A stretch of DNA of 64,000 bases. Source: DHVE2 group archaeon (lineage in GTDB: Archaea; Thermoplasmatota; Thermoplasmata; Thermoplasmatales; Aciduliprofundaceae). Shown one piece after another: positions 1,720 to 45,985 of this stretch; positions within the stretch are counted from its first letter, which is position 1; each line of letters begins with the position of its first letter. The DNA lies in NCBI GenBank assembly GCA_026993785.1, contig JALWRZ010000007.1, forward strand, positions 1 to 64,000, read 5' to 3'. The notes beneath the pieces are model-generated. The model was not told the DNA's origin and did no database searches. It saw only the letters and a program-made list of their open reading frames with translations. The position numbers were made by a program, and so were the translations under genes.

Positions 1720-2253
1720 TCAGAACTTCACGAACATGTCCCGAGGCGCGTTGCAGACGGGACACTTCTCCGGCGGGTCATCGCCCATATACGTGTAGCC
1801 GCATACCGGGCATATGTAGATTTCCTTCTCTTTGATATCCTCTCCCTGCGTAGCCTTCTCCTTTGCCTCACCATACATCTTTGCGTGTATCTTCTCAGCC
1901 TCCATTGCAAAGTGGAAAGAGTTCTCTGCCCCCTTCTCCTTGAAATACTTCGCAAGCTCCAGATACGCGGGATACATATCTTCCACTTCGAAGGTCTCGC
2001 CTCCTATTGCAGTCTCGAGGTTCTCCTCGGTGCTCTTTATGTATCCTAAATTCCTCGCGTGGTTCTTCGCGTGCACGAACTCCGCGTACGCTATGGCGCG
2101 AAACAATCTCGCTATATTCTTCTTTCCCTCCTTCTCGGCGACCTCTGCGAATATTGTGTACTTCATATGTGCCATGCTCTCGCCGGCGAACGCCTCTTCC
2201 AGACTCTTCTTTACCATTTTTCTCATACTATTCACCTCCCTAAGGACCCACAT
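1720..2253 (-). CDS. Rubrerythrin (ferritin-like plus C-terminal rubredoxin domain)
   Basis: Ferritin-like helices with E..H residues; C-term [29 protein letters not shown]. Confidence 0.93.
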
Positions 2254-2728
2254 GCATCATGGGCCAGTATTCATCGTAATTTTCAAAATTCTTCAAATTC
2301 TCCAGCTCCTTGGAAAGGATCTGATAATGTCCCATCTCCATATTGGCAAGGACCTGCAGCATAGCCTGAATCTTTTCCTCCTCAAATCTGGACTTCAGGG
2401 CTTCATAGAACTCCTTAGCTGCGAACTCCGCACGCATTGCATCCTCTATAATCTCACTGAGCAAGCGATCCTCACTAGGATCTACCTCCGGCAGAGGTAC
2501 TGGGCTCTTTTCAGGGAGCACAAGCTCCTCATCCGGGAAATTCTGTCTGTAAAGTGATTCTATAAACGCTCTGTGCTTATCCTCCTCTCCTGCAAGGAAA
2601 AGAAGGCGTTCCTTCAAAAGAGAGTTCTTCACCCTCTGAGCCAGGGTTTCGTAAACATCCTTGCTCTCCACTTCGCTTTTTATAGCAGCGAGCAGCAGAG
2701 TTTTCAAATCGAAATTTTCAAGTTCCAT
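2240..2728 (-). CDS. Ferritin-like/rubrerythrin-family protein
   Basis: Two-repeat E..EEDKHR / [11 protein letters not shown] ferritin-like pattern. Confidence 0.75.
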
Positions 2729-3182
2729 ATTTTTTCACCTCCTCTTTCAGGGCTGCGAGCACCTCCTCAACATGCCCGGCAACCTTAACATTCTCCCATG
2801 CCCTCACGATCCTTCCTTGGGGATCTATTAGAAAAGTGCTTCTAACCGTGCCAAAATATTCCCGACCGTATCTCTTCTTCTTGCCCCAGGCACCATACTT
2901 CTCTATCACCTCATGATTCACATCGCTGAGAAGAAGTATATCAAGTTCCTGCTTCTCTATGAACCGAGCATGACTCTTAGGCGGGTCCTTGCTTATTCCA
3001 ATTATAACGGCGTTGAGCTTCTCAAATTCCTTCTTCATCCTGGTGAAATCCTTTGCTTCTTTTGTGCATCCGGATGTATTGTCCTTCGGATAAAAATACA
3101 GCACGACCCACTTACCCCGGAAATCATGGAGGCAGTGGGCCTCACCCTTGTAATCTGGAAGGCAAAAATCCTCAGCTATCAT
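2718..3182 (-). CDS. Peroxiredoxin (Bcp/PrxQ type)
   Basis: KWVVLYFYPKDNTSGCTKEAKDF; RSTFLIDPQGRI. Confidence 0.9.
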   Translation of the reverse strand: MIAEDFCLPDYKGEAHCLHDFRGKWVVLYFYPKDNTSGCTKEAKDFTRMKKEFEKLNAVIIGISKDPPKSHARFIEKQELDILLLSDVNHEVIEKYGAWGKKKRYGREYFGTVRSTFLIDPQGRIVRAWENVKVAGHVEEVLAALKEEVKKYGT

Positions 3183-37748: not shown

Positions 37749-40058
37749 ATGATGCTTAGCTTAGTGAGGAAGAGGAGCGGCGACTATGTGCTTTATGATC
37801 GCAAGAAGATAGCCAACGCCATAAAGAAGGCCTTCTTGGAGACAAGGGAAGTGGATAATCCAGAGGAGGTGGCTGAAGAGCTGGCAAAAATTGTGGAGGA
37901 GAGAATAAAAAAGTACGAGATACCGACGGTAGAGCAGATCCAGGATATTGTGGAAGAGGTTTTGATGGAGAAGAAGTATGTGAATACTGCCCGCGCATAT
38001 ATAGTTTATAGGGAGAAGAGGAAGAAAATAAGAGAGGCAAAACAAATAATGGGCGTTCAGGATGATCTCAAGCTCACCATAAATGCCGTCAAAGTTCTCG
38101 AGGCCCGTTATCTCCTTAAGGATGAGAAAGGGAATATAATTGAAACCCCCCGAGAGATGTTCTGGAGAACCGCAAAATATGTTGCCCTTGTGGATGCTCT
38201 CTATTTTGAAGATGTGTTTGATATGAGTGGCAAACAGAAGCCACGGAGCATGGAGTTTGCAGGTAAGAGTAATCTGAGCGTTTATGAAATGGAAATGCTG
38301 CGAAGAGCCTTCAGAAGATTGAACAGCAAGGGACATATGCGCGTTGACTTCTCCGAATTTATTCGCATTCTCAATGATAGATGGGACCTCATACAATCTG
38401 TGGCAAGAGATTTCTATGAGCTTATGGTACGAAGACAGTTCATTCCAAACTCGCCCACATTGATGAACGCGAACACGAAGTTAGGGCAGTTAAGCGCGTG
38501 TTTTGTGCTACCTGTGCCTGACAGCATTGAAGGTATATTCGACGCGGTAAAATATGCGGCGATGATACACAAGAGTGGAGGTGGCACAGGATTTTCGTTT
38601 TCGCGATTAAGGCCCAAGGGGGATGTAGTGGCGAGCACCATGGGTGTGGCCTCAGGGCCCCTGAGTTTTATGCGGGTATTTGATGTAGCGACAGATGTGA
38701 TAAAGCAGGGAGGCAAGAGAAGGGGCGCGAATATGGGAGTGCTGAGTGTGCATCATCCCGACATACTTGATTTCATCACGTCGAAAGACTCGGAAAACAA
38801 GGTGCTGAGCAATTTCAACATAAGCGTAGCGGTGACAGACGAGTTTATGGAAGCACTGCTCAATGATGATTACTACGAGCTGCGCAATCCGAGAAACGGG
38901 GAAGTGGTTCGCAGAATAAAAGCGCGTCAAGTTTGGGATCTGATAGTCACGCAAGCGTGGAAGACAGGAGATCCGGGAGTGATATTCATAGACGAGATAA
39001 ATAGGAGGCACCCTGCGAGGCATCTGGGAGAGATAGAGAGCACGAATCCTTGTGGAGAGCAACCGCTCCTTCCCTATGAATCCTGCAATCTTGGTAGCAT
39101 AAATCTATCCCTCTTCGTGGAGAACGGCGAGATTAAATGGGACAAATTGAGACGCGTAGTTCACACTGCCGTCCACTTCCTAGACAATGTGATAGACGCT
39201 AACAAATACCCGATACCGCAGATAGAAAGGATGACTTTGCTCACCCGCAAGATAGGTCTCGGTGTCATGGGCTGGGCTGAGATGCTGATAAAATTGGGAA
39301 TACCGTATGATAGTGAAGAAGCCATAGAGTTAGCGGAGAAGGTGATGCGATTTATAAGCGAAGAATCGCATCGTGCGAGTATGAAGCTGGCAGAGAAGCG
39401 CGGTGTATTTCCTGCGTGGGAGGGTAGTGACTGGTGGAAGAAGGGCATAAGGATAAGGAACGCTACCACGACGACGATAGCACCCACAGGCACCATAAGC
39501 ATCATCGCCGGCACATCTTCCAGTATCGAGCCACTTTTTGCCATTGCCTTCGTTAGGAAGGTTCTGAATGGGGAGGAGCTGTTGGAAATCAACCCACTCT
39601 TCGAGGAGGAGATCAGAAGACGCGGTCTGTATTCTGAGGATCTCATGCTTGAGATAGCCAAATCGGGAAGCATCCAGCATTTGGATCTTCCGGAGGATAT
39701 CAAGAGATTGTTTAGAACGGCGCATGATATAGCGCCCAAATGGCATGTGGCTATGCAGGCAGCGTTCCAGAAGTATGTGGATAACGCTGTGAGCAAGACT
39801 GTGAATCTTAGGTATGACGCACCGCCAGATGAAGTAAACGAGGTATTTATGCTCGCCTATCAGCTCAAATGCAAGGGCATCACGGTGTATAGGGATAAGA
39901 GCAAGAGGGAGCAGGTGATAGAGAAGGCGGATAAGGCCATCGAGAATCTGCTTAAGAGGAAAGAAAAGGAGATTTTGCAGGTAAAACTTTTCCCTGAAGA
40001 ATACATCAAAATGGGTTCCACCGAAACATCTTCTTGCAGAGAAGGTGTCTGCGATTAA
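37749..40058 (+). CDS. nrdJ: Adenosylcobalamin-dependent (class II) ribonucleotide reductase
   Basis: ATP-cone [67 protein letters not shown]-term CREGVC. Confidence 0.93.
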
Positions 40059-40069
40059 GGAGGGAGATT

Positions 40070-41230
40070 ATGCATTTAACAAAGGATGAGGAGAGAATTC
40101 TGGAGGGGGAATACGGGGAGTCGTTAAGAATGATGATGAGCATTCTTGTGAAAATAGGTGAGATTTACAATGCAGATAGACTCATCCCCATAGCTTCAGC
40201 TCAAATTTCCGGTGTTTCTTACAATACCATAGGCGACCATGGCCTGCATTTTCTCCGCTCTCTTCGAGGTGTAAAGGTGAAGGTACCCACAACCTTGAAT
40301 CCTCTGGCCTTCGATAAGAGATATGTAGATTTGCTTAAAGTAAGTGAGGAAATGTTAGAAAAGCAGGGAAAGATAATAAAGGCCTATGTGAATATGGGAA
40401 TTAGGCCTACAGCCACCTGCACCCCATATTATTTTGACAACATCCCAAAATTTGGACAGCACATAGCCTGGGCAGAGAGTTCCGCGGTGATTTACGCCAA
40501 TTCAATCATAGGTGCAAGAACCAACAGGGAGGGGGCAGTTACAGCCCTAGCCGCTGCAATAATAGGTAAAGCTCCCAATTATGGGTTGCATTTAGAGGAA
40601 GAGAGAAAGGCCACGCATATTGTAGCTCTTGATTTTGAGCCCAAGGGAGAGGAGTATCCGTTAGTAGGCCTTGCAATAGGAGAAAGGATAAGTGGCATTC
40701 CATACCTGAGAATAACGGGCGACGAAGATGATTTCAAGCTTATGGGTGCTGCCATGGCGGCTTCTGGAAGCATTCCCATGTATCATGTGGAAGGCTACAC
40801 TCCGGAGTATAGGAATGCCCTGAATGATGATGTGGAAAGAATATTCATAGAAAGAGATGAGCTCGATTATTTCAGGGAGGAGATCGATGTAGAATTAATA
40901 GCCATAGGTTGTCCCCATGTATCCGCAGTTGAGCTTAGAAGAATTGCGGAATTTGTTAAGAATAAAAAGAAAAAGAAGGATATAGAACTCTGGGTTTTCG
41001 CGGCTAAAAGTGTGAGACAGAGATTCTCCGAATGGGTAAGGATAATCGAAGATTTTGGTGCCAAGGTAATGGAAGATACCTGTGTGGTTGTTAGCAACGC
41101 GGGAAGATTATATCGGCGGATAGGAACCACCTCTGGTAAGGCTGCGTTCTACCTCAGTAAAGAGAAATTCGGTGGCTGCGAGGTAGTGGTGAAAGATCTC
41201 TACACTCTTCTAAGGAGCGTGGTTGAGTGA
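40070..41230 (+). CDS. Aconitase X large subunit, probable phosphomevalonate dehydratase large subunit
   Basis: MHLTKDEERILEGEYGESLRMMMSILVKIGEIYNADRLIPIASAQISGVSYNTIGDHG; CTPYYFDNIPKFGQHIAWAESSAVIYANSIIGARTNREG. Confidence 0.9.
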   Translation: MHLTKDEERILEGEYGESLRMMMSILVKIGEIYNADRLIPIASAQISGVSYNTIGDHGLHFLRSLRGVKVKVPTTLNPLAFDKRYVDLLKVSEEMLEKQGKIIKAYVNMGIRPTATCTPYYFDNIPKFGQHIAWAESSAVIYANSIIGARTNREGAVTALAAAIIGKAPNYGLHLEEERKATHIVALDFEPKGEEYPLVGLAIGERISGIPYLRITGDEDDFKLMGAAMAASGSIPMYHVEGYTPEYRNALNDDVERIFIERDELDYFREEIDVELIAIGCPHVSAVELRRIAEFVKNKKKKKDIELWVFAAKSVRQRFSEWVRIIEDFGAKVMEDTCVVVSNAGRLYRRIGTTSGKAAFYLSKEKFGGCEVVVKDLYTLLRSVVE

Positions 41231-41232
41231 TT

Positions 41233-41607
41233 ATGAGAGGCAGAATTATTGTGGAGGGAGAGGCTGAAGGTTATGTGGTAAAATGCGCGAAGCCTGTGGT
41301 GGTTCTAGGAGATATAAATGAGAAAGAGGGAACTGCATGCGGGAAAAAGATCGCAGGCAAGGTTTTTGTGTTTCCTCGAGGTGCAGGGAGCACAGTTGGC
41401 TCATATACAATATATGGATTGAGATATTATGGCAAGGCTCCAGTAGCTATGATTCTACAGGAGGCTGAACCTATCGTAGCTGCAGGAGCCATTATAGCCG
41501 AGATACCCACTGTGGATAAGATCGATATCTCATTACTCCAGGAAGGGGATTTGGTGAAAATAAAAGGCAATGTGGTGGAAGTTATATCCTCCCATCCACA
41601 AAAGTAA
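41233..41607 (+). CDS. Aconitase X small (swivel) subunit, probable phosphomevalonate dehydratase small subunit
   Basis: DUF126-like: GKVFVFPRGAGSTVGSYTIYGLRYYGKAPVAMILQEAEPIVAAGAIIAEIPTVD; directly follows the large subunit. Confidence 0.9.
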   Translation: MRGRIIVEGEAEGYVVKCAKPVVVLGDINEKEGTACGKKIAGKVFVFPRGAGSTVGSYTIYGLRYYGKAPVAMILQEAEPIVAAGAIIAEIPTVDKIDISLLQEGDLVKIKGNVVEVISSHPQK

Positions 41608-44587
41608 GTATTTCGCTGAGTGTCTCTTCTTCTATTTCCTCCACATTGAAGAGGAAAAGTGCAGATTTAGATTTTATTATATTTTTAAGTTCCATAAGAA
41701 AATTCTTAAGGCGATCCATCTCGTTTATGAGGAGAAGAAAATCAAAACAATCCATTAAAACTATCTTGATTCCCCTATCTATCATCTTGGTAATCTCTGC
41801 CTTAAGTCTATCCAGCTCCTTGGGTTTTATGCTTCTTCCTAAAGGTACATAGGAAATCCAGATTATCTGTGCATTCTTAACATCGTAGATCTTTCTTGCA
41901 TTTTCTGGATTTTCCTTAGTAATAAGAATCTTCCTCTCATCCTTCAGCTCTGGAGGCAGATTCGCTAAGAGCCTATGGAAATCTCCAAGGAATAGGTATA
42001 TGTGTCCCTCACGTATCTCCTTAGTTTCTTCCAACTTCACCTTTATAGGTGCACCACATCTGGGGCAGAATATATCTTCCTCGCCAAGCTCTACCCCGCA
42101 AAATGGGCAGTAGGTCTTACTTCCTATTTTTTTGGATTTGAAAGCATGGGTGTAAAGATACTCCTTAATGCGCGTTGCAAGGTTCATGGAGAACCCTGGA
42201 AGCTCAGCAATTTCGGCTACAGGTGCCTGCATGAGCTCGTATATGCTCCCATATCCCATATGAAATAGGGTTTCTGCCTTATTTTCCGCAATACCAGGTA
42301 TGCTTTTGAAAGCCTTTATCACCCATTTCTTGAATAGAGGATTGATGGCTATGGTTATATCATGGTCGAGAATGGGCCATATTACTACATAAGCGTATTC
42401 TTTGTACTTGAAATCCATATTTCTTATTCTGCATCTACCCCTAATCTCTTCGGAATACACGCGAATCTCACGAATTATCTTCTCATCCCCTGAGATGCTT
42501 ACATCTATGAGATCATCATAATCCAAATCCAGATCCTTGCGCATGAAATTTATTCTTCTCACGATTTCATTTACGAATCTTAGTCTTTCTGTGGATATGT
42601 CCCTCTCCTTAAGCACATAGAGAGGACCATAGGGAGTATCAAGTTTAACATATCCGGCTGGCATCTTCTCCACGTATCGAAGCATATTTGGGGTTATCTT
42701 TATTATGAAACCCTCCACACCCAGGCTATATCCTCCCTTGTTCATGGCATCCATAATTTCCTTCACATTTTTCCTGCGGAGTAGAAAAGCTATCTTAGAT
42801 GCCAAAGCGCGGTATTTCTCGCTTATAGCCTCTAAATTGGGAACTATCTCAATCTCCATCTCCTCCCATCTTTCCGTGGGATTGAAAAGCAGAATATTCT
42901 CCATTTTCATTATACCTGATGTGAAATAGCTAACCTCGTCAGCTCTTGGGGAGACAAAAAATATCTTTTTGATTGGCTCTCTCCTAGGTATATTATTTTC
43001 CCGCCTGTATCTCCGAATTGCCTTAACGATCTCCCTAACTATGTTTACATTCATCTCTTCCTTTATTTCTCCCAGCTCAAGCTTGATGTTTTTCACACCC
43101 AGCCTGGAGAGAATTTCTTGGGAGAAGGAAGGAAGATATGGGTAAAGCATTATAAGCACATCAACAAGCGGCCCTTTAACTATTGGATAAGGTCTTTTCA
43201 TGGGTATATAAAAATGGGAAAAATCGTTCATAACGAATTTATAGATAAGATCAAAGGCGCTGGCAAAGTTATAGGCGCCAACAAGTTCCATATATCTTCT
43301 CTTCACCTTTTCTACCTCATTAATAAGCCATTGATCCAGCGGATCCATCATTTCGCTGCTTCCGTAAATCTCAATATATTTTTTTATATTGATTAATAAA
43401 TTCTTCAGCTTATCTATCCTTCTCAGATCCTCTTTTTTCACCCCCCCTCTTTTCTTGGAAAGAAGTACCCCTCGGACATCCTCTTTAATTTTCTCCGGAG
43501 GTTCATGGCGCAAAATCAAAATGGGATTAAAGAATTCATGTCCCACTTCCTTTGAAAGGGCGGAAAGAAGGTACATAATATTACTTCTTTTCTGATGAAT
43601 TATTCCAAGAGAAGGAGCAGCTACCTCTTCGGGATATGCTAAGGCATAAAGAAACTCGGATTTTATAAAAAAGGGCATGCTCATTATGTTTCCGCATACA
43701 GGACACTCTTTTATCTTATCTCCTATTTCCGTATGACCGCATTGCTGGCAGTAGAGAATGGGGATTCTGTATTCTCCCTCCTCCGAGGAAATAGATATCT
43801 TGCCCTTTTTAGCTTCGATAAACGCAATGGGTATATCCACTTCCTCAAGTATACTATCACAGCGGGGACATTGGGGTATCTTGGTTTTCTTCTCCAGAGA
43901 ATATATGATGGTGTAAGAGGGCATAACCGAGGGAATAGTAAATTCATCTCTATTTTTGGCAGTTATAAAACCCGTAACATAGGGCCCAAGAAGCACATAA
44001 TTCTGAAGCTTGTACTCTTCATTTAAAAGCTCCTCAGGTCTCCATTTTTTTATTCTTCTCCGAGGCACCTCTAATTTATCAACAAGCACATCCCTCAGTT
44101 TTTCGGAGGAGACCCAGATCTCTTCCTCCATATCCACCGCAAGAAGATTCTCATCTTCATTCACAGCAATGCCAAAGGGCTCATCACCATCCTCCAATAG
44201 ATCTATGAAATAAAGCTTCTTTCCTATTCTTACTTTAATAACATTCATTCTGGTTTTTTCCTCTGTCCATTTTACCTGTGAAGCAAGATAATATCTATCG
44301 CATTCTCCGCAGTAGTACCTTCTTCTCTTCTCGATCTTCAGTATGCTATCTCTGTAAAGCCCTTTGAGAATTTCATTAAGTTTGTCACCATGCCCCTCCG
44401 CTTTAATCACCTCAGAATCAGGAAGATACTTCCTTATTTCTTCCGAAGAAAGTGTAGTGATTACTCTTATTTTAACATCATCACCAAATATACTCCTAAA
44501 TTTCCGATAAGCATCGTAGAAAACCAACTCTTCCAGAGTATACGAATTAAGCGAAATTATTGGGTATGTGTAAACCACCTCTTCCAT
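41582..44587 (-). CDS. Isoleucyl-tRNA-synthetase-like paralogue lacking HIGH/KMSKS, with HhH, zinc-ribbon and DUF835-like modules
   Basis: DPLDQWLINEVEKVKRRYMELVGAYNFASAFDLIYKFVMNDFSHFYIPMKR (class I aaRS anticodon-binding type); VREIVKAIRRYRRENNIPRREPIKKI; HhH IPGIAENKAETLFHMGYGSIYELMQAPVAEIAELPGFSMNLATRI; YCPFCGVELGEEDIFCPRCGAPI; C-term HIYLFLGDFHRLLANLPPELK...IVLMDCFDFLLLINEM. Confidence 0.7.
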   Translation of the reverse strand: MEEVVYTYPIISLNSYTLEELVFYDAYRKFRSIFGDDVKIRVITTLSSEEIRKYLPDSEVIKAEGHGDKLNEILKGLYRDSILKIEKRRRYYCGECDRYYLASQVKWTEEKTRMNVIKVRIGKKLYFIDLLEDGDEPFGIAVNEDENLLAVDMEEEIWVSSEKLRDVLVDKLEVPRRRIKKWRPEELLNEEYKLQNYVLLGPYVTGFITAKNRDEFTIPSVMPSYTIIYSLEKKTKIPQCPRCDSILEEVDIPIAFIEAKKGKISISSEEGEYRIPILYCQQCGHTEIGDKIKECPVCGNIMSMPFFIKSEFLYALAYPEEVAAPSLGIIHQKRSNIMYLLSALSKEVGHEFFNPILILRHEPPEKIKEDVRGVLLSKKRGGVKKEDLRRIDKLKNLLINIKKYIEIYGSSEMMDPLDQWLINEVEKVKRRYMELVGAYNFASAFDLIYKFVMNDFSHFYIPMKRPYPIVKGPLVDVLIMLYPYLPSFSQEILSRLGVKNIKLELGEIKEEMNVNIVREIVKAIRRYRRENNIPRREPIKKIFFVSPRADEVSYFTSGIMKMENILLFNPTERWEEMEIEIVPNLEAISEKYRALASKIAFLLRRKNVKEIMDAMNKGGYSLGVEGFIIKITPNMLRYVEKMPAGYVKLDTPYGPLYVLKERDISTERLRFVNEIVRRINFMRKDLDLDYDDLIDVSISGDEKIIREIRVYSEEIRGRCRIRNMDFKYKEYAYVVIWPILDHDITIAINPLFKKWVIKAFKSIPGIAENKAETLFHMGYGSIYELMQAPVAEIAELPGFSMNLATRIKEYLYTHAFKSKKIGSKTYCPFCGVELGEEDIFCPRCGAPIKVKLEETKEIREGHIYLFLGDFHRLLANLPPELKDERKILITKENPENARKIYDVKNAQIIWISYVPLGRSIKPKELDRLKAEITKMIDRGIKIVLMDCFDFLLLINEMDRLKNFLMELKNIIKSKSALFLFNVEEIEEETLSEILTFVDGRI

Positions 44588-44692
44588 TTTTGCACCGAAT
44601 GTATATTAAGTTTCATTGATATATACCTATCGCCCAAAAAAATTCAATATTTTGAGAATAAGATATAAATAAACAAGACTCATGCAGCATCC

Positions 44693-45985
44693 ATGGCCCA
44701 ACAAATAGAAGAAATTCTGAACGATGAGTTCGTAGGGAAAAAAGTGGAGCTGAGGGGATGGATTTATCGGAAGAGAAGAGTTGGAAAATTAATATTCATC
44801 GTGCTTCGCGATTCCACAGATATAGTCCAATGTGTGGTGGAGAAAAGAAAGATTCCGGAGGAGACTTTCAAACTGCTTGATAAGGTAGGTGTGGAGAGCT
44901 CTCTGGTACTCAAAGGCACCGTTAGAAAGGAGGAGAGAGCACCTACCGGTTACGAAGTGGATGTAGAAGAAATAGCGGTTGTAGGGCCATCTTACAATTT
45001 TCCCATCTCCAAGGATAAAAGCGATGAGTTTCTTCTGGATAACAGGCATCTATGGGTTAGAAGCAGGGAAATGAATGCTATTTTGAAAATAAGACACACG
45101 GTATTCAAAGCACTCCATGAATTCTTTCGCGATAGAGGGTATTATGAAACCCAAGGTCCAATGTTTGTGACAGGAGCAGTGGAAGGCGGATCCACACTTT
45201 TTGAAGTTCCTTATTTTGGTAAGAAGGTGTATCTTACGCAGAGCTCGCAGTTTTATCTTGAAACTCTTATATTTTCTCTTGAGAAAGTTTATACCGTGGC
45301 TCCCAGCTTCAGAGCGGAAAAGAGCAGAACAAGAAGGCATTTGACAGAATACTGGCATGCCGAAGCAGAGGCGGCTTGGTACCACAACGATGATATGATG
45401 CGTGATGAAGAGGATATGATTGTTCACATAATTCAGAGGGTATTGGAAGAAAGAAAGAAAGAACTCAAATATCTTAACAGGGATATAGAGCTTCTGCAAA
45501 ATATCGAAAAACCCTTTGAAAGGATGAGATACGAGAAACTCATAAACTTTGCACAGGAGCATGGAGTAAATATAGAGTATGGAGATGACCTGGGTGCTGA
45601 TGAAGAAACCGCTATAACCAAGCATTTCAATGCGCCTGTGTTCATAACCCATTATCCGCGGGAAATAAAACCCTTCTACCATCGTCCGGATCCAGATAAT
45701 CCCAATGTGATTTTATGCCATGATCTCCTTGCTCCCGAGGGATATGGAGAAATCATTGGTGGCGGAGAGAGAATTTATAAGCTAGAGGTCCTTCTTCAGA
45801 GGATGGAGGAAGAAGGCCTTAATCCAGAGGATTACTATTGGTACGTCGACCTCCGAAAATATGGAAGTGTGCCTCATGCAGGATTTGGCCTAGGCATGGA
45901 CAGATTTGTCTGGTGGATCGCAGGACTCTCACATATAAAATACGCGATACCCTATCCCAGAACCATCAGAAGAACAAAGCCTTGA
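44693..45985 (+). CDS. asnS: Asparaginyl-tRNA synthetase (class IIb)
   Basis: VELRGWIYRKRRVGKLIFIVLRDST; VEGGSTLFEVPYFGKKVYLTQSSQFYLE; FRAEKSRTRRHLTEYWHAEAEAAW; GFGLGMDRFVWWIAGLSHIKYAIPYPRT. Confidence 0.92.
   Translation: MAQQIEEILNDEFVGKKVELRGWIYRKRRVGKLIFIVLRDSTDIVQCVVEKRKIPEETFKLLDKVGVESSLVLKGTVRKEERAPTGYEVDVEEIAVVGPSYNFPISKDKSDEFLLDNRHLWVRSREMNAILKIRHTVFKALHEFFRDRGYYETQGPMFVTGAVEGGSTLFEVPYFGKKVYLTQSSQFYLETLIFSLEKVYTVAPSFRAEKSRTRRHLTEYWHAEAEAAWYHNDDMMRDEEDMIVHIIQRVLEERKKELKYLNRDIELLQNIEKPFERMRYEKLINFAQEHGVNIEYGDDLGADEETAITKHFNAPVFITHYPREIKPFYHRPDPDNPNVILCHDLLAPEGYGEIIGGGERIYKLEVLLQRMEEEGLNPEDYYWYVDLRKYGSVPHAGFGLGMDRFVWWIAGLSHIKYAIPYPRTIRRTKP

Follow-up and report, generated by a model that had tools for sequence, protein, structure and literature searches.

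The window, a 64,000-nucleotide stretch of a DHVE2 archaeal genome, carries on its minus strand the 1001-codon open reading frame reported in an earlier note, with an ATG start (Table 1). The product is related to isoleucyl-tRNA synthetase (IleRS) and has lost its catalytic motifs, and it is referred to below as the dead IleRS. The 3′ end of the gene overlaps the convergent gene for the aconitase-X small subunit by ~26 bp. The divergent neighbour asnS also adjoins the dead ileS in families f3 (G096), f4 (G246) and f10 (G006, G030). Between the two divergent genes (44588-44692), a TATA-like CTTAATATAC ends ~13 bp ahead of the dead ileS ATG, compatible with a leaderless archaeal transcript of dead ileS running divergently from asnS.

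Table 1. The dead ileS gene, the segments of its product and the neighbouring genes (positions in the window).
Feature	Coordinates	Strand	Description
Aconitase-X large subunit gene	40034-41230	+	convergent with dead ileS
Aconitase-X small subunit gene	41227-41607	+	convergent with dead ileS
Dead tailed IleRS gene	41582..44587	-	1001 aa, ATG start, stop included
Residues 861-1001	41585..42007	-	DUF835 (inactivated-KaiC-like) domain
Residues 819-860	42008..42133	-	zinc ribbon, C827/C830/C841/C844
Residues 751-818	42134..42337	-	helix-hairpin-helix (HhH; Pfam HHH_5)
Residues 511-750	42338..43057	-	IleRS C-terminal domain (Pfam DUF5915)
Residues 411-510	43058..43357	-	anticodon-binding helical domain (Pfam Anticodon_1 418-541)
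Residues 266-410	43358..43792	-	class I core, second half
Residues 85-265	43793..44335	-	CP1 (editing) domain, reduced in size
Residues 1-84	44336..44587	-	N-terminal half of class I (HUP) core; HIGH absent
asnS	44693..45985	+	divergent neighbour of dead ileS

Pfam searches matched Anticodon_1 (residues 418-541, E 3e-16), DUF5915, which is the IleRS C-terminal domain (577-729, E 3.7e-8), HHH_5 (760-809, E 1.1e-4, under its cut-off), Zn_Ribbon_1 (826-848, E 1.9e-6) and DUF835 (880-984, E 5.7e-16; 59.0 bits against a gathering score of 33.1). The earlier note's reading of an IleRS-like anticodon-binding and C-terminal region followed by an HhH, zinc ribbon and DUF835 tail is thus borne out. Residues 1-410 matched no synthetase model, with no hit to tRNA-synt_1 in the protein up to E 10, and the score on the NCBIfam ileS model (23.1 bits) was below the cut-off of 621.4. 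No protein kinase domain was found among the Pfam matches, and no Walker A motif was seen in the DUF835 sequence (residues 861-1001).

Profile-profile alignment placed residues 65-1001 of the dead family on the live tailed IleRS described below (probability 100%, 3e-88), and a profile of the N-terminal residues 65-305 alone did so with a probability of 93.9%. For an AlphaFold model of the whole protein (pLDDT 84.8, pTM 0.56), the top PDB match was IleRS2 (8c9d, E 1e-38, ~1000 columns) and matches 1-9 were all IleRS; the TM-scores were modest (0.43), as is to be expected where the orientation of domains is uncertain. Since one of the 18 rows of the underlying alignment was a live IleRS, residues 1-420 were refolded with the input restricted to dead copies (pLDDT 86.8), and PDB matches 1-15 were again all IleRS (3.6e-15). 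The earlier note had named a missing class I core as one observation that would count against its reading; the predicted structure does contain this core, with a strand (2-6) and helix (15-33) at the position of the IleRS HIGH strand-helix. By Pfam, the profiles and the predicted structure, the domains follow one another as they do in IleRS: class I core, CP1, anticodon-binding domain, C-terminal domain. Taken together, these comparisons of sequences and models indicate that the dead protein is an IleRS by descent, with homology over its length.

Alignment with live IleRS confirmed that HIGH is missing. The loss of KMSKS was also correctly noted earlier, but not its replacement by LLSKKRGGVK: in the alignment with live tailed IleRS the KMSKS loop itself is deleted, and LLSKKRGGVK aligns with the live segment LRWYLLYAG past it, so LLSKKRG was rejected as a modified KMSKS. 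No intact equivalent of either motif was found in the dead protein. Within the second core half (residues 266-410), DVWFDSG and DQTRGWFYS are replaced. Beyond HIGH and KMSKS, the editing site is dead as well, TTTPWT and GxVHxAPxxGxxDF being gone from CP1, and retention of CP1 for trans-editing was rejected on that ground. All of these motifs are replaced or deleted in every aligned dead copy of the window's order. Among residues that are invariant in live tailed IleRS, the dead family keeps 5/67 in the N-terminal core, 7/70 in CP1, 16/111 in the second core half and 11/30 in the anticodon-binding domain, against 38/67, 47/70, 74/111 and 24/30 in the functional untailed enzymes of that order; in the C-terminal domain the dead family keeps 36/64 and the untailed enzymes 31/64.

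Instead of the four Cys pairs counted earlier, six CxxC pairs were found, making three zinc sites, and all 12 zinc cysteines are kept. Eight of them form the two IleRS sites (C93/C96/C240/C243 of CP1 and C280/C283/C295/C298 of the second core half) and are common to the live and the dead proteins of f3 and of the window's family (f1); the other four, in the tail ribbon, do not vary among the dead copies of either family. R677, R678 and M682 are found in all three kinds of protein, whether tailed, untailed or dead. From the lost motifs we infer that the dead protein would be unable to activate isoleucine, charge tRNA or edit.

A separate canonical ileS, which the earlier note proposed to look for, is present: the window genome encodes one complete untailed IleRS (C12:68736, 1039 aa) with PHIGH and KMSKS intact, alongside one ValRS and one LeuRS. 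In every f1, f3 and f4 genome examined, a single IleRS, invariably untailed, scores above the family cut-off. These functional enzymes possess complete anticodon-binding and C-terminal domains of their own.

The architecture of the dead protein, taken at first to be without parallel, proved to be widespread. Across most of the class, live IleRS enzymes of ~1300-1550 aa end in this tail of HhH, ribbon and DUF835. They are usually the sole IleRS of their genome, have HIGH, KMSKS and the editing motifs intact and often possess a second HhH and ribbon. Several members of this live tailed lineage have lost the tail (G029, G106, G160, G044). An intact tailed and a complete untailed IleRS occur together in f6 genomes (G002, G027, G069, G098, G105, G112), possibly representing a stage before displacement. 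In f20, one tailed IleRS (L202, genome G053) shows early damage (ASMPWT, GHSREGY, LSKSMGD) and has a second complete IleRS alongside. Also in f20, very long proteins adjoining the tailed IleRS (L043:9073-12999 and L044:8992-12501) end in DUF5915, and the L043 protein contains CARDB domains; judged by their domains, they appear to be another instance in which this tRNA-binding-type domain has been put to new use, here in proteins that are not synthetases. A literature search whose reach was mostly outside subscription journals found neither the tailed IleRS nor its dead form described.

Most class genomes that were read have the live tailed ileS convergent with two aconitase-X genes; the window gene sits in exactly this place, as do its f1 orthologues and the two f4 copies. 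In a tree of the C-terminal domain (237 columns), all 14 dead copies from the window's order fell into a single clade (100/98) next to the live tailed enzymes, and dead and live tailed proteins together were split from untailed IleRS (100/99). The functional IleRSs of f1-f4 formed one clade, which grouped with second untailed copies from f6 and other class members. Both types are present outside the class as well (rows G311 and G319 of the phylum tree were left out as wrong ORFs). The shared locus and the position in the tree show that the window gene is the native tailed ileS of its lineage, inactivated in place. Charging is the work of the untailed IleRS. A simple recent duplication within the lineage was rejected, as both tree and locus point to the tailed lineage. 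The earlier note was right, then, in recognizing a dead relative of IleRS, but this is a displaced native gene at its native locus and not a paralogue fused to new domains. The simplest history is that two IleRS types coexisted, that charging in the order passed to the untailed one, and that the tailed one was retained at its locus although its catalytic function was lost.

Dead copies extend beyond the window's family. The relatives in f3 (four genomes, 918-933 aa) are without DUF835, and those in f4 (two genomes) are strongly reduced to 686 aa, having lost DUF835 and kept the C-terminal IleRS domain. No dead copy is present in f2, a family of the same order, or in six f4 genomes of genus g20. 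Dead tailed copies, always with another IleRS present, were found in seven more families (f7, f10, f15, f19, f24, f27 and f29); they measure 1300-2921 aa where complete and their damage varies, f27 having kept HIGH and lost KMSKS and f7, f10 and f29 having lost all motifs. One f15 relative (L057, genome G042) of at least 2921 aa, damaged in HIGH and KMSKS, has a long stretch separating its IleRS part from the DUF835 tail. Of the second copies compared, 11/12 are of the untailed type with HIGH and KMSKS; the remaining one (G066) is of the tailed lineage and has its N-terminal end cut off.

A 383-column tree placed the dead copies in two clades, one comprising the window's order with f7, f10, f27 and f29 (98/94) and the other f15, f19 and f24 (83/76). 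The tree would require one or two inactivations, with the caveat that long branches may attract; many independent deaths of the tailed IleRS were not borne out. A second IleRS accompanies all dead copies (30 with, 0 without) and a minority of intact tailed enzymes (8 with, 29 without), an association that reflects one or two independent events and therefore has no statistical weight by itself. The class thus holds a pseudo-IleRS lineage of long standing, and the window gene is one of its well-kept members.

The dead protein is full-length in 8/8 sampled genomes of its family, at 45-66% identity. For the close pair G228/G170, dN/dS was 0.076 for dead ileS (0.066 for the functional IleRS), 0.04 for its C-terminal domain and 0 for the HhH. 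Other comparisons of dead ileS gave 0.038 (close pair L093/L095), 0.12-0.14 (more distant f1 pairs) and 0.10 (one f3 pair); between the window and its genus mate dS is saturated, which limits dN/dS there. Mean identity within the family is highest in the HhH (73%), followed by the ribbon (65%) and the C-terminal domain (62%), and lies at 37-46% in the core halves and CP1; among orthologues, 5-19% of core columns are invariant versus 33-46% in the C-terminal domain and HhH. Dead ileS is therefore under purifying selection over its length, most strongly in the C-terminal domain, HhH and ribbon. The catalytic half is itself conserved in sequence (dN/dS 0.04-0.25) and so is not a mere linker.

Our preferred reading, to which we assign a probability of about one half, is that the dead protein is a non-catalytic tRNA-binding regulator or scaffold, a pseudo-synthetase that would hold RNA and use DUF835 for signalling. 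The anticodon-binding and C-terminal domains would bind RNA, most likely tRNA(Ile), an expectation drawn from domain kinship; the zinc ribbons and HhH would make additional RNA contacts, and DUF835 would connect the bound state to partners. The job may already have resided in the C-terminal half of the live tailed enzyme and been set free by the untailed takeover. An affinity of the C-terminal domain for RNA is not evident from its net charge, which is only +4. Nor can signalling through DUF835 be the universal function, because f3 and f4 have lost this domain; a core function common to all copies would therefore belong to the part that derives from the synthetase, and to its C-terminal domain in particular.

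DUF835 has been described as possibly an inactivated KaiC domain, which archaeal response regulators use for output (PMC5847659). Elsewhere in the window genome (G000:C6), a DUF835 gene (L009:1048-1854) lies directly before a gene for a P-loop ATPase of the GvpD/KaiC type (1856-3181), and DUF835 may work with KaiC-like ATPases. Response-regulator output and this gene pair together make a signalling role in f1 plausible.

Among the alternatives, it is possible, if somewhat unlikely, that the dead protein senses nothing and assists the functional IleRS, or a multi-synthetase complex, in trans as a helper or scaffold, in the manner of Arc1p and the AIMP proteins. Such a role would fit the retention of tRNA-binding-type domains with catalysis gone, the other IleRS alongside every dead copy found and the frequent proximity of asnS. 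However, a functional IleRS that is complete in its own anticodon-binding and C-terminal domains has no obvious need of a helper, and the g20 genomes of f4 and family f2 manage without the dead copy. Doubtful, in our estimation, is a more specific proposal in which an ancient pseudo-IleRS of several Thermoplasmata families would sense tRNA(Ile) charging or abundance and report through its inactive KaiC-like domain, as a counterpart of GCN2 lacking the kinase output domain of that protein. We also see little likelihood of moonlighting beyond translation, in which the tail would work on DNA or within a signalling complex of the KaiC type, the synthetase body being left as a structural remnant or a small-molecule sensor. 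The link of DUF835 to response regulators, the DUF835 gene beside the KaiC/GvpD-type ATPase gene and the standing of the HhH as the best conserved part are consistent with it, but f3 and f4 keep the C-terminal IleRS domain after losing DUF835, and the tail is missing from several live enzymes of the tailed lineage. An active but unusual enzyme, such as an altered aminoacyl transferase or a trans-editing factor, is very improbable, for although the predicted core fold is present, every activation and editing signature residue is replaced or deleted and the core is weakly conserved among orthologues. A decaying pseudogene on its way to loss would account for the stepwise shortening from f1 through f3 to f4 and the absence from f2 and most f4 genomes, and for f4 it is possible, but as a general explanation it is scarcely credible, being contradicted by dN/dS in the window's family and one f3 pair (0.04-0.14), by the ORF of ~1000 aa intact in 8/8 genomes of that family and by the 12 retained zinc cysteines.

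The regulator or scaffold reading can be set against known proteins. The dead protein shares with the live tailed IleRS of Thermoplasmata the domain order from CP1 to DUF835, the chromosomal neighbours and the lineage in the C-terminal tree, but the latter has intact HIGH, KMSKS and editing motifs and is usually the sole IleRS. IleRS2, the type 2 IleRS of Priestia (8c8u-8c9d; PMC10485003), is in contrast catalytically active and has no such tail. That synthetase paralogues can take on new functions is well established (reviewed in PMC9437257). LeuRS-I of Sulfolobaceae is likewise an archaeal extra synthetase with a damaged CP1, and it binds tRNA without charging it; however, it still makes leucyl-adenylate (PMC9437257), whereas the dead IleRS is also without activation motifs. 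SbzA, HisZ and PoxA (PMC9437257) are synthetase descendants with new jobs too, but most proteins of this kind retain the active site or lose the tRNA-binding part, the reverse of the dead IleRS. The DUF835/iKaiC proteins of PMC5847659 resemble the dead protein in matching Pfam DUF835 above its cut-off, but carry REC or PAS domains where it carries a synthetase body. Synthetase-derived proteins with new jobs are thus already known; what appears new is a native synthetase that was displaced and then kept as a non-catalytic protein.

One published survey of IleRS states that sequences without the catalytic motif were removed (PMC10485003), a filter by which dead IleRS proteins would be hidden. 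Conversely, archaeal IleRS-like ORFs with good C-terminal matches may, in these lineages, not charge tRNA. The named records of the window's family are DHVE2 and Aciduliprofundum archaea. Aciduliprofundum boonei (G013) is in culture and, we assume, very probably carries the dead ileS, so tests are feasible.

In several archaeal families, a housekeeping enzyme at its own locus has apparently been displaced by a second copy and retained in non-catalytic form. This amounts to a natural experiment in which charging and editing were removed and the remainder kept, pointing to parts of the tailed IleRS that serve a second function. If the tRNA(Ile) sensor proposal is true, the live tailed IleRS would combine charging and sensing in a single chain.
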